A DNA stretch of 64,000 nt from Marinobacter panjinensis (GTDB taxonomy: Bacteria > Pseudomonadota > Gammaproteobacteria > Pseudomonadales > Oleiphilaceae). The stretch is taken from assembly GCF_005298175.1 (NCBI RefSeq), contig NZ_SZYH01000001.1, forward strand, positions 2,046,001-2,110,000, read 5' to 3'. Under the pieces are notes generated by a model. It did not search any database. It saw only the letters and a program-made list of their open reading frames with translations, and had not been told where the DNA came from. Below, in pieces: positions 20,714 to 50,714 of this stretch. Positions within the stretch are counted from its first letter, which is position 1; every line of letters begins with the position of its first letter. The translations under genes were made by a program, and so were the position numbers.

Positions 20714-21117
20714 GAGTCCGACTCCGGATCATCACGGTCAACCGCTGGCTTGTCGCCAACCGCTTCGCGAATCAGGTTATCCATGTGGCGGCTGTGCCCG
20801 AGCAGCGCGTCGAAGTGAAAACGCAGCTGGGGCGTTACCCGCAACTTCATGGCACGGCCGATCTGGCCACGCAGGAAGCCGGCTGCCTTGTTCAGTACCG
20901 CCAGGGACTCCCGTACCTCAGGAGATTCCTCAGTCAGTTCCTCGGTGGTGAGCAGGGATACATAGATATCCGCGTAGCCCAGGTCACGGCTGACCTTGAC
21001 GGCATTGACCGTGACCATACCCACCCGCGGGTCTTTGACCTCCCGCTGGATGAGCTGGGCCAGCTCACGCTGCATCTGATCGCCGATGCGATCAATTCGG
21101 CTGAACTCTCTTGGCAT
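20710..21117 (-). CDS. rbfA: Ribosome-binding factor A
   Basis: 135 residues. The KH-like fold shows [28 protein letters not shown] at the N-terminus and [21 protein letters not shown] near the end. It helps mature the 16S rRNA 5' end and is needed for cold adaptation. The start shares one base with the infB stop (TGATG). Confidence 0.96.
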
Positions 21118-23693
21118 CAGGCCCCCGTAGACTCAAGCTTACGCTCGACCCGGACGCGATCGAACACCTCGATCTGGTCACCGACTTTCACGTCATAACC
21201 TTTAACGCCGATACCACACTCCATGCCGTTCCGGACTTCCGGTACGTCATCCTTGAAGCGACGCAGGGATTCCAGTTCGCCCTCAAAGATCACCACGTTG
21301 TCACGCAGAACGCGGATCGGCTTGTTACGGTACACCGTACCCTCGATCACCATGCAGCCGGCCACCTGGCCAAACTTCGGTGAACGGAACACGTCCCGCA
21401 CATCGGCAATACCCACGATATCTTCGCGGAACTCTGGCGCCAGCATACCGGTCAGAGCTGCCTTCACATCATCGATCAGGTTGTAGATGATGCTGTAGTA
21501 ACGCAGATCCAGGCCTTCCTGCTCCACCAGTCGCTTCGCGGCTGTATCGGCACGGACGTTAAAGCCGAAGATAACCGCATTGGTGGCCATGGCGAGGCTC
21601 ACATCCGTCTCGGCAATACCGCCAACGCCTGAGGACACGATCTTGACCTGGACTTCTTCGTTGCCCAGATCCTTGAGCGACTTGGTAATAGCTTCCAGTG
21701 AACCACGAACATCGGTCTTGAGGACCACGTTGAGGGTCTTGACCTCGTCCTTGCCCATGTTCTCGAACAGGTTCTCGAGTTTGGCGGCCTGCTGCCTGTG
21801 CAGACGCTGCTCCCGTTCGCGGGACTGGCGGAATTCCGCTAGCTCCTTGGCTTTCTTCTCGTCGGCGACAGCAAAGAACTCGTCGCCGGCGTTCGGCGTG
21901 CCGTTCAGACCGAGGATTTCCACCGGAATAGAAGGCCCGGCTTCCTTGACCTGCTTACCGGCTTCATCGGTCATGGCGCGAACCTTACCGAAGAAGCCAC
22001 CGGCGACAACCATCTCGCCCTGACGCAGGGTGCCGTTCTGGACCAGTACCGTGGCCACGGAGCCACGTCCGCGTTCCAGGCTCGACTCGACGACCACACC
22101 CTTGGCCGGAGCGTCCGGAGACGCTTCCAGTTCAAGAATTTCAGCCTGCAGCAACAATGCCTCAAGCAGATCGTCGATACCGGCGCCGGTGTGAGCGGAT
22201 ACCGGGATAAACTGGACGTCACCGCCCCAGTCTTCCGGAATCACTTCCATACCAGCCAGCTCAGTCTTGATGCGGTCAGTATCGGCCCCTTCCTTGTCCA
22301 TCTTGTTCATCGCGACCACGATGGGCACACCAGCGGAACGGGCGTGCTGAACGGCTTCCTTGGTTTGTGGCATGACGCCGTCATCGGCTGCAACCACCAG
22401 GACCACGATATCGGTACACTGGGCACCACGGGCACGCATGGCTGTAAAGGCGGCGTGGCCCGGGGTATCCAGGAAAGACACCATGCCGTGGTCAGTCTCG
22501 ACGTGGTAAGCACCAATATGCTGGGTAATACCACCGGACTCGCCGGAAGCAACCTTGGTGCGACGGATGTAATCCAGCAGCGAGGTCTTACCATGGTCAA
22601 CGTGACCCATCACACTGACAACCGGTGCACGCTTGGTCTTTTCCTTGCCTTCGAAGACAAATTCGCTCAGAACCTCTTCCTCAAAGGCATCCTCGCTGAC
22701 CGTGTTGGGCTTGTGGCCCAGTTCCTCGGTCACCAGCACGGCGGTTTCCTGGTCGAGAGCCTGGTTGATTGTCGCCATTACCCCCATGCCCATCAGTTTC
22801 TTGATCACATCGGCTGACTTGACGGCCATCCGCTGGGCAAGGTCACCCACGGTGATCGTCTCGGGAATATCGACTTCTCTTACCATTGGCTTGGTCGGCC
22901 TCTCGAAAGCGTGACGCTTCTCTTTAGGTTTCTTTTTCGCGCGAAGTGGCTTGCGCAACGTGGTGTCTTCTTCCTCTTCATTGATGATCAGAGGCTCTTC
23001 CACCGGACGGCTACGAGGCCCGCGATGCCCTGCGGACTTCTTCTTGGGCTTGCCATCGTCCGGCTCGTCACCGCGCTCACGAGCTTTCTCTTTCTTTTTC
23101 TTCGGCTTGCGATCCTTGCCCTCGCCTTCTTCAGGCGGCGGGATCGGCATATCTTCCGGCGCGGGAACCGGAGACGGCTCCGGCTTGGCAGCCACTTCCG
23201 GCTGCTCTTTTTCCGCCGGCTTTTCTTCGGCAGCAGGCTTTTCTTCGGCCGCTGGCGCTTCCGCCGCTGCCTCGGATACCGGTGCTTCCGTCTTCGGCGC
23301 CTCTGCAGGTTGTACCTGCTCGGCCGCTACCGCCTGCGCCTCTTCCGGTGCTGCGGCAGCCTGCTCGGCGGCCTCTTCCTGCTTGACAGCTTCCGGCTCC
23401 AGCTCGGCGCGCTTGATATACGTACGGCGCTTGCGAACCTCAACATTGACCGTTTTGGCACGGCCCGCTTTCAGCGTTGTTGTTGTCTTGCGCTTGAGAG
23501 TGATTTTCTTCGGTTCCGCTTCACTCTCACCGTGATTCTTTCTCAGATAGGTCAGCAACTGTTGCTTCTCATCACTGGTGACAGAGTCCTCTTCGGAGCG
23601 GGCTTTCAGGCCAGCCTCCACGATCTGTCGCAGCAAACGATCCACGGGAGCGCCTACATCTGCGGCCAGTTGTTTTACCGTTACATCAGCCAT
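21117..23693 (-). CDS. infB: Translation initiation factor IF-2
   Basis: 858 residues. Residues 1-50 form the IF2 N-terminal fold; ~95-270 are a low-complexity Ala/Glu/Pro/Lys-rich linker; the GTPase core follows with G1 GHVDHGKT, G3 DTPG and G4 NKMD, then domains II-IV that bind fMet-tRNA. It brings initiator tRNA to the 30S subunit. It sits in the usual nusA-infB-rbfA order, 17 bases after nusA. The alanine- and glutamate-rich linker is of normal type for this family and should be flexible. Confidence 0.97.
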
Positions 23694-23710: not shown

Positions 23711-25204
23711 TTAAGCCTGGTCTTCAAACCAGGGGGCACGTGCAGCCATAATCAACTGGCCGGCACGCTCTTCTTCCATACCTTCAATGTCGATCAGATC
23801 ATCAACCGACTGCTCTGCAAGATCTTCCATGGTACGGATACCCATACCGGCCAGCTTGAACGCCAGGCCCCGGTCCATACCGTCCATTGCCAGAAGATCT
23901 TCTGCGGGCTCCGCGCCCTCAAGGGCCTCTTCACTGGCCAGCGCCTGGTTCAGCAGGGCATCCTTGGCACGACGACGCAATTCCGTGACGGTCTCTTCGT
24001 CAAAACCTTCAATAGCAAGCATCTCTTCCATAGGGATGTACGCCACTTCCTCAATGGACGTAAATCCTTCCTCGATGAGAACGCCGGCAAACTCCTCGTC
24101 CACATCCAGATTGCCGGTGAAGTGCTCCAGCAAGGTGTTGTATTCCTGCTCCTGACGCTGACCGGCTTCTTCCTCGGTCATCACGTTCAGTGTCCAGCCT
24201 GTCAGCTCTGTCGCCAGGCGCACGTTCTGCCCGTTTCGGCCGATAGCCTGGGCCAGGTTGTCCTCGGCTACAGCCACTTCCATGGTGTGACGATCTTCGT
24301 CCATCACAATGGAAGCCACTTCTGCCGGCGCCATGGCATTGATGACCAGTTGGGCGGGGTTGTCGTCCCAGAGCACGATATCAACGCGCTCGCCACCCAG
24401 CTCATTGGAAACGGCCTGAACACGCGAACCCCGCATGCCGACACAGGCACCCACCGGGTCAATCCGGCGATCGTTGGTTTTCACCGCAATCTTGGCGCGT
24501 GAGCCGGGATCCCGGGCAGCGCCACGGATCTCGATCAGCTCCTCGGCGATTTCCGGAACCTCGATACGGAACAGCTCTATCAGCATCTGCGGATCTGTAC
24601 GGCTCAGGATCAGTTGCGGGCCGCGGTGGTCCGTGCGGATTTCCTGCAGCAGCGAACGAACCCGGTCACCCATGCGGAATGTCTCGCGCGAAATCAGGTT
24701 TTCACGGGGAAGCAGGGCTTCGGCGTTGGCGCCCAGATCCACGATGACGTTGTCCCGTGTCACTTTCTTTACGGTACCGGAAACCAGTTCGCCCACACGG
24801 TCACGATAGCTGTCGACAATCTTGGTGCGCTCGGCTTCCCGAACTTTCTGGAAGATAATCTGTTTGGCTGCCTGGGCGCCAATACGTCCGAAAGCAACAG
24901 ATTCCACTTTCTCTTCGTGGATGTCGCCCGGCCGGAGGTTCTCATCAATTTCCTCCGCTTCCTGCATGGTCAGCTCGGTGCCAAGCGCAGGAACGGCGTC
25001 GTTGTCGACCACCAGCCAGCGGCGGAACGTTTCGTATTCGCCGGTGCGGCGATCGATGGAAACACGGATGTCGGCTTCCTCGTCGTCGTAACGCTTTTTG
25101 GCAGCGGTAGCGAGTGCCAGCTCAATTGCTTCAAAGATCACATCCTTCTCGACACCTTTCTCGTTCGAGACGGATTCGACCACCAGCAAGATCTCTTTAC
25201 TCAT
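23711..25204 (-). CDS. nusA: Transcription termination/antitermination factor NusA
   Basis: 497 residues. N-terminal RNAP-binding domain ([18 protein letters not shown]), S1 domain (~135-200, [19 protein letters not shown]), two KH domains ([42 protein letters not shown]) and two acidic C-terminal repeats (~365-495), as in E. coli. It modulates pausing and termination and probably acts on the attenuators upstream of rimP in its own operon, as NusA autoregulation is known in enteric bacteria. Confidence 0.97.
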
Positions 25205-25245
25205 TGGAATGCCCTGCCCTTAAAATAAACTTTTCGTCCACTGAC

Positions 25246-25707
25246 TTATTCAAATACCGGAACGATGTTGGCTTTCTCTATGCTATCGAATGGCAGCAGG
25301 TACTCGTGATCATCAACAACCACGACAACGTCCTCGCCCTCAACACCTTTTATCAGGCCCTGAAACTTGCGACGCCCCTCAAATGCCATCCGTAATTTGA
25401 TCTGGACCTGATGGCCGGCGAATGCCTCATACTGCTCCAATCGGAACAACGGCCGATCCATGCCCGGAGACGAGACCTCCAGGGTATATTCGGTCTGGAT
25501 GGGGTCTTCCACATCCATTACGCCGCTCGCCTGGCGGCTGACCTTTTCACAGTCTTCTATGCCAATGCCGTTCTCGACATCGTCAATAAATATTCTTAAC
25601 AGGGAATGGTGTCCCTGGGAGCGGAATTCAATGCCCCAGAATTCGTAGCCCAGGCCTTCCACAATGGGCCTGAGTATTTCTTCCAGCTGCTTCAACTTTG
25701 CTGACAA
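25246..25707 (-). CDS. rimP: Ribosome maturation factor RimP
   Basis: 153 residues, normal length. [31 protein letters not shown] and the central [15 protein letters not shown] motif are diagnostic of RimP, which is needed for 30S subunit assembly. It is the first gene of rimP-nusA-infB-rbfA-truB and stands behind a leader with its own promoter and two or more terminator hairpins. Confidence 0.96.
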
Positions 25708-25749
25708 GGCTATTCGGTCTCCGTTACTCGTTTTTTCGACCCCAAAAAC

Positions 25750-25778
25750 AAAAAAAGGGCTGTTGATCAGCCCTTTTT
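25750..25778 (-). terminator. rimP leader, attenuator hairpin 2
   Basis: On the minus strand GGGCTG-ATCAA-CAGCCC is followed by a run of seven T, only about 45 bases before the rimP start. A terminator here, after a strong promoter and before the gene, implies regulated read-through. Confidence 0.8.
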
Positions 25779-25786
25779 ATGCACCA

Positions 25787-25806
25787 GGGCCTGATGCGCC
25801 AGGCCC
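25787..25806 (-). other. Hairpin between the two rimP-leader terminators
   Basis: The perfect 7-bp stem GGGCCTG / CAGGCCC lies between the two terminators. It has no T-run and could take part in an alternative fold with the neighbouring hairpins. Confidence 0.5.
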
Positions 25807-25813
25807 CTTAATC

Positions 25814-25837
25814 AAAAAGCCCCTGAAAAATGGGGCT
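25814..25837 (-). terminator. rimP leader, attenuator hairpin 1
   Basis: On the minus strand AGCCCC-ATTTTTCA-GGGGCT is followed by TTTTT, about 115 bases downstream of the predicted start of transcription. It marks the possible end of a short leader RNA. Confidence 0.75.
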
Positions 25838-25953
25838 CTTTGTTGCAAGAACTCGCAGAGGATAACCACAAACCTAATACCTCCCCTGCTGACAGACACC
25901 TGGCCTGCCTGGAACAGGCAGGCTGAAATGTGCCCGGAGCCCGCTCCAATATC
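25838..25953 (-). ncRNA. rimP leader RNA or small RNA (predicted)
   Basis: Between the strong promoter at 25960-25988 and terminator 1 lies ~115 bases without a good reading frame. It contains an 8-bp hairpin (CCTGCCTG / CAGGCAGG, 25907-25925). A rimP-leader attenuator has been described in gammaproteobacteria (the Rfam rimP leader); this region has the right place and architecture, but I could not run a covariance model. It could also be an independent small RNA. Confidence 0.5.
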
Positions 25954-25959
25954 CGCCGG

Positions 25960-25988
25960 AGTATAGAGACGCCGGCCTTACTGGTCAA
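25960..25988 (-). promoter_or_regulatory. Strong sigma70 promoter for the rimP leader
   Basis: On the minus strand TTGACC, exactly 17 bases, TATACT: five of six at both hexamers with ideal spacing. It starts just after the tRNA-Leu terminator and so gives the rimP operon its own transcription unit. Confidence 0.8.
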
Positions 25989-25997
25989 GGACTGACC

Positions 25998-26031
25998 AAA
26001 AAAAACGGCCTGGTAATTCCAAGCCGTTTTT
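25998..26031 (-). terminator. Terminator after tRNA-Leu
   Basis: On the minus strand ACGGCTTGG-AATTA-CCAGGCCGT is followed by eight T (bounded by A-runs on both sides). It ends the transcript that carries secG and tRNA-Leu. Confidence 0.85.
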
Positions 26032-26040
26032 CTTCAAATA

Positions 26041-26125
26041 TGGTGCCCGGGGCCGGACTCGAACCGGCACAGCTTTCGCCACTACCCCCTCAAGATAGCG
26101 TGTCTACCAGTTTCACCACCCGGGC
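26041..26125 (-). tRNA. tRNA-Leu (anticodon GAG)
   Basis: 85 bases with encoded CCA. The acceptor stem GCCCGGG / CCCGGGC is perfect, the anticodon arm is CTATC-TTGAGGG-GGTAG giving anticodon GAG (reads CUC and CUU), a long variable arm follows as in type II tRNAs, and the T-arm holds GGTTCGAGTCC. It lies seven bases after secG, as leuU does in E. coli. No tRNA-Met (metY) is found between it and rimP, unlike E. coli. Confidence 0.96.
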
Positions 26126-26132
26126 AACACTC

Positions 26133-26507
26133 TTACTCGAGCTCGGGGAGCTCATTCTCATCCCCGCGCCCGGTTTCGCCTTCATCGGCCGCCTCACTCT
26201 CAGCCTGCCCGGCATCGGAACGGGATTCCTGAACTACAGGAATACCTGCCTCCCCTGCCACTTCGGCACGCTGCTTGGCGAATACAGCCAGCGAAAAACT
26301 TGTTACAAAAAATACGATGGCCAGCAAGGTCGTTGCGCGAACCAGGAAGCTGCTGCTGCCTTCGCTACCAAACACCGTCTGGGAGGCGCCGCCACCGAAT
26401 GCGGCGCCAGCGTTGGCACCCTTACCCTGCTGAATCAGCACCAGACCCACCAGTGCCACCGCGATGACCACGTGGAGAACGACAACCAGTGTTTCGACCC
26501 AATCCAT
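26133..26507 (-). CDS. secG: Preprotein translocase subunit SecG
   Basis: 124 residues. Two hydrophobic helices (LVVVLHVVIAVALVGLVLIQQ and FLVRATTLLAIVFFVTSF) flank the family motif GKGANAGAAFGGGASQTVFGS. It assists SecYE and SecA in protein export across the inner membrane. A polar Glu-rich tail (~95-124) is longer than needed but common. It is placed between tpiA and tRNA-Leu. Confidence 0.95.
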   Translation of the reverse strand: MDWVETLVVVLHVVIAVALVGLVLIQQGKGANAGAAFGGGASQTVFGSEGSSSFLVRATTLLAIVFFVTSFSLAVFAKQRAEVAGEAGIPVVQESRSDAGQAESEAADEGETGRGDENELPELE

Positions 26508-26564
26508 AATGTCTCTCTAATGACCTAATGATTCGTGCCAACGGCTTTCTCGAATCTGTATCTT

Positions 26565-27323
26565 TCAGGATCTGCCCGGCATCGCCCGGCAAATACTCAC
26601 AAAATCTTCTGCATTTAACGATGCGCCGCCAATAAGGCCGCCATCGATATCCGGCTGAGCAAAAAGCGCGGCCGCATTATCCGCTTTTACACTGCCGCCG
26701 TAAAGCAGGGATATCTCATCTGCCGGCGCCCCGAGGGACTTTAGCACGGCCCGGATAGCGGCATGCATGGCCTGGGCGTCTTCAGCGGTGGCGGTTTTCC
26801 CGGTCCCTATGGCCCATACCGGCTCATAGGCGATGACAACCTGTTGCCACTGCCCGGCACCAACCTCCGAAACAGCCTTACGGACCTGGCCCGAAACAAC
26901 GTCTTCGGCCTTGCCCGCCTCGCGCTCATCCAGGGTTTCGCCAACGCATATCACTGCGTCCAACCCCGATGCCAATGCCTTCACAACCTTGACCGAAACC
27001 TGCTCGTCGGTTTCGCCGAACAGCTGCCTGCGCTCCGAATGCCCCACAAGGGAATAACCGCATCCTGAGTCTTTGGCCATCCCCGCGGATATTTCCCCGG
27101 TGTAGGCGCCTGAATCCCAGCAGGCAATGTTCTGGACGCCAACGGCAATCTGTCCGTCAGCCTGCCTGACAACATCGCCGACAAACAGGGCGGGAGGAAT
27201 AATAACAGCCTCCACACCATTATCAAGCGATGCCAGCTCTGAGCGAATCTGGCCAACCAGGCTGTTCACAAGGTCTTTCGACCCGTTCATCTTCCAGTTT
27301 CCGGCGACGATCTTACGGCGCAT
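26565..27323 (-). CDS. tpiA: Triosephosphate isomerase
   Basis: 252 residues. VAGNWKMNGS carries the substrate-binding Asn-Lys, VGHSERRQLFGE the catalytic His, and AYEPVWAIGTG the catalytic Glu and the loop. It interconverts dihydroxyacetone phosphate and glyceraldehyde-3-phosphate. It is located after glmM, as is usual in Pseudomonas-like genomes. Confidence 0.97.
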   Translation of the reverse strand: MRRKIVAGNWKMNGSKDLVNSLVGQIRSELASLDNGVEAVIIPPALFVGDVVRQADGQIAVGVQNIACWDSGAYTGEISAGMAKDSGCGYSLVGHSERRQLFGETDEQVSVKVVKALASGLDAVICVGETLDEREAGKAEDVVSGQVRKAVSEVGAGQWQQVVIAYEPVWAIGTGKTATAEDAQAMHAAIRAVLKSLGAPADEISLLYGGSVKADNAAALFAQPDIDGGLIGGASLNAEDFVSICRAMPGRS

Positions 27324-50350: not shown

Positions 50351-50714
50351 GGGGACGACATGGCTTCGACGCTGGTGGCGAACCCTTGGGTGCATGTCGA
50401 GATGGCAGCCAATCTCGTTAATCCAAAGCTGCAACGCAATAGTCGCAAACGACGAAAACTACGCACTAGCAGCGTAAGCTGCTAGTCGTCCTGACTGGGT
50501 CGCCCGTAGCCCAGAGCTACATCTCAGGACGTCATCGCTTACGGGATGCTCCGTTATCCAGAGTTCACTGGCTAACGGCTAAGATTCAAAGAACTCGGTT
50601 CTTGCACCCTGACTCTCGGGTCGCTTGAACTTAAATCAATAGAGAGACGCTAAGCATGTAGATCTCAAGGCTGAGTACTGGCGGACGCGGGTTCAATTCC
50701 CGCCGTCTCCACCA
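50351..50714 (+). ncRNA. ssrA: Transfer-messenger RNA (tmRNA)
   Basis: 364 bases including an encoded CCA. 5' GGGGACGACATGGCTTCGAC and 3' GGTTCAATTCCCGCCGTCTCC form the tRNA-like end (7-bp acceptor stem). The tag reading frame at 50445-50477 begins at GCA and encodes ANDENYALAA followed by TAA, as in enteric bacteria; that tail marks proteins for ClpXP. The 3' end is intact, so no element interrupts it here. Confidence 0.98.

Follow-up and report, generated by a model that had tools for sequence, protein, structure and literature searches.

The leader that precedes rimP in Marinobacter panjinensis raises the question of whether the rimP-nusA-infB operon, which encodes the termination factor NusA, limits its own transcription, and of which RNA elements could take part. 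According to the available text of Naville and Gautheret (2010), no predicted transcription attenuator is more ubiquitous in bacteria than the rimP leader, for which NusA is proposed as the regulator (PMC2965389). The initial annotation was thus right that such a leader is already described in gammaproteobacteria, as both the Rfam family RF01770 and that study attest. Here, the locus was analysed computationally within a stretch of 64,000 nucleotides of the genome, hereafter the window. What is new is a conserved 5' RNA domain of Marinobacter that stands in the place of a tRNA-fMet, the tandem terminators being already known.

Organization of the Locus

The minus-strand order is secG, tRNA-Leu(GAG), promoter, leader, rimP, nusA, infB, rbfA, truB, rpsO and pnp, where the gene names are those that we presume from family knowledge and synteny. 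A rimP match is found once per genome in 58 of 58 genomes, and the nearest named relatives by RimP sequence are Marinobacter, with 97-99% identity. The elements and the basis on which each was placed are as follows:

26041-26125, minus strand: tRNA-Leu(GAG), the upstream neighbour (ARAGORN)
25998-26031, minus strand: terminator of the tRNA-Leu transcript, AAAAACGGCTTGG-AATTA-CCAGGCCGTTTTTTTT (position; a script finds the same hairpin in relatives)
25960-25988, minus strand: sigma70-type promoter TTGACC-N17-TATACT (promoter scan and genus conservation)
25953, minus strand: predicted transcription start (from the -10 position)
25891-25909, minus strand: hairpin A, 7-bp stem, loop CAGGU (pairing and column identity, 77 sequences)
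25855-25889, minus strand: hairpin B, variable in sequence, stem covarying (double-sided changes in 5 of 7 counted pairs)
25839-25854, minus strand: conserved linker GAGUUCUUGCAACAAA (mean column identity 0.959, 77 sequences)
25814-25839, minus strand: terminator T1, 5' arm C-rich (RF01770 alignment, script in relatives, pairing)
25786-25807, minus strand: middle hairpin, conserved, located between T1 and T2 and inserted as compared to RF01770 (77 sequences, pairing in 96.4% of cells)
25750-25778, minus strand: terminator T2, 5' arm G-rich, U7 (terminator scan, RF01770 alignment, pairing)
25719-25722, minus strand: GGAG, likely the rimP ribosome-binding site (read from the sequence)
25246-25707, minus strand: rimP, TTG start at 25707 (ORF position)
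23711-25204, minus strand: nusA (family knowledge and synteny)
21117-23693, minus strand: infB (family knowledge and synteny)

Two further RNA elements were recognized in the window, namely an rpsO leader (Ribosomal S15, RF00114; 19643-19777, minus strand), with 41.3 bits versus a cut-off of 39.5, and a tmRNA gene (50351-50714, plus strand) with the tag ANDENYALAA.

The Promoter

The promoter claimed before rimP consists of TTGACC (25988-25983), 17 nt and TATACT (25965-25960) on the minus strand. It is the only promoter-like site in a scan of 25000-26600; since 0.8 such sites are expected there by chance, the match alone proves nothing. The claim is confirmed by the genus. Indeed, 117 upstream rows of Marinobacter, 115 of which were parsed, yielded 88 distinct leaders, and TTGACC is kept in all 88, while TATACT and the spacing of 17 are each kept in 87; column identity in the spacer falls to 0.44. 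L133 and L162 were missed by the pattern, and in L133 the promoter is visible on reading. Judged by this near-invariance across the genus rather than by match quality, the promoter is real.

The terminator of tRNA-Leu stands between the upstream tRNA and this promoter. In the sequence before tRNA-Met of six relatives, an exact TTGACC-N17-TATAAT occurs in L037 and L038 and close matches occur in L053 and L056, so that the former metY promoter is the best reading of the Marinobacter rimP promoter. A GC-rich stretch (25953-25960, minus strand) lies immediately 3' of the -10 element and would fit an origin as a tRNA promoter. Such stretches are seen in stable-RNA promoters under growth-rate control. 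An inverted repeat, GGTCA-N5-TGACC (25983-25997, minus strand), overlaps the -35 element as a possible operator, and its CAGTCCTTGACC part is 98-100% conserved in the 88 leaders.

The Tandem Terminators and the Known rimP Leader

Four hairpins had been described in the leader, two of them followed by T-runs at 25814-25837 and 25750-25778. The positions of the latter two, T1 and T2, are borne out and conserved across Marinobacter; the count has to be corrected, as five helices are conserved. The leader folds at -107.3 kcal/mol, versus -81.6 kcal/mol for shuffles (z -5.27, 0 of 200 shuffles as good). Across 77 distinct sequences (the window and 80 named loci, with four duplicates dropped and none skipped), 98.3% of the cells of the five helices form standard pairs, as compared to 42.7-66.3% when the partners are slid by 1-3 columns. 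T1 and T2 themselves vary too little within the genus for a strong pairing test.

T2 was picked up by the terminator scan, and T1 is absent from its minus-strand list because the T-run is short (TTTTTGATTAA). The RF01770 alignment places T1 on the family's first terminator. The check by the Rfam model, suggested in the initial annotation, gave a full-length alignment over T1 and T2 (25872-25750; 31.8 bits, E 0.0028 in 551 bases); the gathering score of 47 bits is not reached and the window is absent from the gathering-threshold scan, so that the leader is at best a diverged relative of the family. The tandem arrangement of RF01770, CCC..GGG followed by GGG..CCC directly before rimP, is present, and T1 and T2 are kin to the terminators of the known rimP leader. 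Thus, the doubling that had been singled out as deserving a look is family architecture, since RF01770 models two hairpins with U-runs; it is likewise known from t1 and t2 of E. coli and from the available text of PMC2965389, which reports the tandem upstream terminator, CCC..GGG before GGG..CCC, in several gammaproteobacteria. In the class sample of 369 genomes, RF01770 had matches at E <= 0.001 in 43, one of them above the cut-off; under the stricter filters of that search the own genome was unmatched.

The Marinobacter leader shares with RF01770 the place upstream of rimP and the order of a C-first T1 and a G-first T2. Set against the model, it differs by what the alignment indicates are two additions: the conserved middle hairpin, which separates T1 from T2, and a 5' domain (hairpin A, hairpin B and linker) that is missing from RF01770. 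As far as the available text of PMC2965389 goes, rimP leaders have a potential antiterminator structure and no larger conserved element.

In thermodynamic folding of the leader, a static calculation that ignores kinetics, no mutually exclusive antiterminator is evident, and folds that lack T1 or T2 come out weaker by about 16-18 kcal/mol. Read-through would therefore need a factor or incomplete termination, and on these models a protein, or termination that is incomplete, is a likelier means of control than a ligand switch. A predicted helix, UUGCA/UGCAU, would enclose both T1 and the middle hairpin; it has 4 pairs, with one double change, in L148, and 15 G-U variants at that pair, and is possible but too short to claim. 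In the window, CCAGG in the loop of hairpin A is complementary to CCUGG in the middle hairpin; this long-range pairing was rejected because the loop changes in L122, L159, L029, L031, L139 and L154 lack restoring changes.

T1 seems dispensable, as L122, L159, L029 and L031 show a degraded T-run or stem of T1 and the stem is decayed also in the sister genus G566. Hairpin-like inserts of ~15-45 nt are found in the T1 apical loop, with the stem intact, in L138, L151, L158, L160, L161, L166, L167, L032, L034 and L035.

A Conserved 5' RNA Domain in Marinobacter

Hairpin A, hairpin B and the linker make up the domain between the promoter and T1. Hairpin A has the consensus GRCAGGC-CAGGU-GUCUGUC, and all seven positions are paired in 77 of 77 sequences, with a mean column identity of 0.978. 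The small variation always keeps the pairing (G-U, A-U, G-C), and it is this retention, G-U pairs included, that argues for an RNA element rather than a DNA operator. Hairpin B holds most of the double-sided changes; as contrast columns, its loop has an identity of 0.609 and that of T1 0.589. Comparison of the leader with Rfam returned no family over hairpin A.

For a covariance model of the domain (R1), 41 of the 77 sequences were used. In 293 genomes of the order, it scored 67-96 bits in 12 same-genus genomes among the matches listed, some of which had supplied model sequences. The next-best match, with 24.1 bits, lies before rimP in G566, of another genus of the same family, whose leader keeps the promoter, hairpin A and T2. 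The remaining matches (<=23.4 bits in the order sample, <=23.0 bits in the 369-genome class sample) are at background level. By this measure, the domain is strongly found only in Marinobacter.

No regulon was found, since in the own genome the linker (GTTCTTGCAACA) occurs once and the sequence of hairpin A has one mismatch-free site, with 16 others at 2-3 mismatches versus 5 control sites. A leader peptide starting at the GTG in hairpin A, the one start tested, was rejected, the distance from GTG to linker being spread over the three frames (40, 25 and 11 of 76 rows).

The domain may be the binding site of a protein that tunes termination, it may make the RNA more stable, or it may itself be a small RNA. 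In the last case, it would form the body of a stable RNA ending at T1 or T2 and acting elsewhere, the tRNA unit having been taken over and rimP being transcribed by leakage. This would fit the presence of an own promoter, the conserved hairpin A, the single-stranded linker and the terminators, as well as the rimP leader of enterobacteria, which is named in the available text of PMC5391140 as an attenuator-derived RNA associated with ProQ. However, the domain stands directly before rimP in all loci seen, and we regard a small RNA acting elsewhere as unlikely. Literature searches returned no paper on a Marinobacter rimP small RNA and no description of the 5' domain.

The Linker and boxA

A different role for the domain would be rRNA-style antitermination, in which the boxA-like linker (GUUCUUGCAACA) recruits NusB, NusE and NusA and, like a nut site, lets polymerase read through T1 and T2. 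The succession of hairpin, boxA-like sequence and terminators speaks for it, as does the conservation of the linker, the six leading letters of which fit the consensus GYTCTTTAANA (PMC5725501). However, the rRNA genes of the genus carry a canonical boxA (GCTCTTTAAAAA, GCTCTTTAACAA), and the linker resembles the rRNA and suhB boxA in its first letters but lacks the core TTTAA; with deviations from the consensus at positions 7, 8 and 11, it was rejected as a canonical boxA. Moreover, A is found at the leading letters in some species (GAATTC, TACTTGC), the linker is different in L162 and G566, and no boxA is reported upstream of other Nus factor genes within the 50 nt searched (PMC5725501). Recruitment of Nus factors by the linker thus appears quite improbable. 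Matches to the boxA consensus (GCTCTTTAAAAA, GTTCTTTAACAA) were also seen at G000:C1:1858074 and G000:C1:2907313, away from any 16S start found, making the genes there candidates for boxA regulation; RF00177 gave no match in the own genome, in which the 5' ends of 16S genes are located at contig ends.

The Place of tRNA-fMet

Outside the genus, 91 rimP upstreams were surveyed by a simple terminator pattern, 21 from the order, 69 from the class sample and one from E. coli. Both terminators, with the same inverse polarity as in Marinobacter, are found in 45, T2 alone in 21, T1 alone in 18 and neither in 7. A tRNA-Met(CAT) lies within 500 nt of rimP in 53 of the 91 (ARAGORN, linear, each region singly), and in 33 of these 53 a T1-like hairpin follows it within 80 nt. 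Such proximity of T1 to the tRNA would agree with terminators that merely insulate rimP from upstream transcription, without regulation; however, in Marinobacter the operon's own promoter precedes T1 and T2, and the tRNA-Leu unit possesses a separate terminator, which leaves mere insulation a very small probability.

None of the 117 Marinobacter upstream rows (91 distinct) has a tRNA-Met(CAT) before rimP, 116 have tRNA-Leu(GAG), and ARAGORN finds no tRNA in the Marinobacter leader. The own genome has tRNA-fMet at two other places, as do two other Marinobacter genomes; in G055, the sole tRNA-fMet match is the one before rimP. In Marinobacter, a conserved structured RNA occupies the place of tRNA-fMet between the promoter and T1. 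In its position, its promoter and T1, the leader agrees with the tRNA-fMet unit of sister genera, as if it were a mere leftover of that gene with persisting terminators. Yet local alignments of six leaders with four tRNA-fMet genes are at shuffle level (86-436 of 500 shuffles), for which a tRNA-fMet relic was rejected, and decaying DNA would not show the strong conservation seen in the domain. This conservation largely refutes a leftover, to which we give hardly any credence.

A Proposed Model of Attenuation and Comparison with Known Systems

The attenuator-type arrangement before an operon encoding NusA, as put forward in the initial annotation, is well supported by anatomy and conservation. 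We consider it probable that the leader is an attenuator of rimP-nusA-infB under NusA feedback, with a promoter inherited from metY. Transcription would start at this promoter of the tRNA-fMet gene, which relatives keep here, and the polymerase would pass the structured 5' domain and then encounter, ahead of rimP, two intrinsic terminators. Some polymerases would stop at T1 (RNA of ~140 nt) or T2 (~204 nt), lengths that follow from a start near 25953, and the rest would enter the operon. In such a scheme both terminators would work under the control of NusA, and the operon would limit itself because the NusA that it makes raises termination, a mode of regulation that we carry over by analogy from E. 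coli and Streptococcus. The 5' domain would modulate termination or RNA stability. That hairpin A (loop CAGGU) and the linker UUCUUGCAACAAA became, after the loss of tRNA-fMet, an RNA sensor that binds NusA, RimP or IF2 and sets read-through is a more tentative proposal, which we rather doubt.

In E. coli, the available text of PMC6511841 describes terminators t1 and t2 before rimP, several promoters in the metY-nusA-infB leader, and more operon transcript when termination by NusA is reduced. NusA feedback on metY-nusA-infB is cited there and in the available texts of PMC2965389 and PMC4448216, and a 2011 paper to which the last of these refers names it in its title. The two terminators are common to both species, and the script used here finds T1 and T2 of E. 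coli as well; in contrast, E. coli has the metY tRNA-fMet and several promoters, whereas Marinobacter lacks that tRNA at this site and has one recognised promoter. The rimP (ylxS)-nusA locus of Bacillus and Streptococcus likewise has a short leader RNA with intrinsic termination. In B. subtilis, NusA-dependent attenuation was reportedly described by Mondal et al. in 2016. For the rimP operon of S. agalactiae, the available text of PMC4448216 reports a short terminated leader RNA and proposes NusA feedback; there, one terminator lies 31 nt after the start, leaving no room for such a 5' domain, as compared to two terminators in Marinobacter. The signal read by the rimP leader being unproven in most groups, Marinobacter, in which the 5' RNA domain is large and sharply conserved and the complicating tRNA of the E. 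coli operon is missing, offers a cleaner place in which to test NusA feedback and to find a binding partner.
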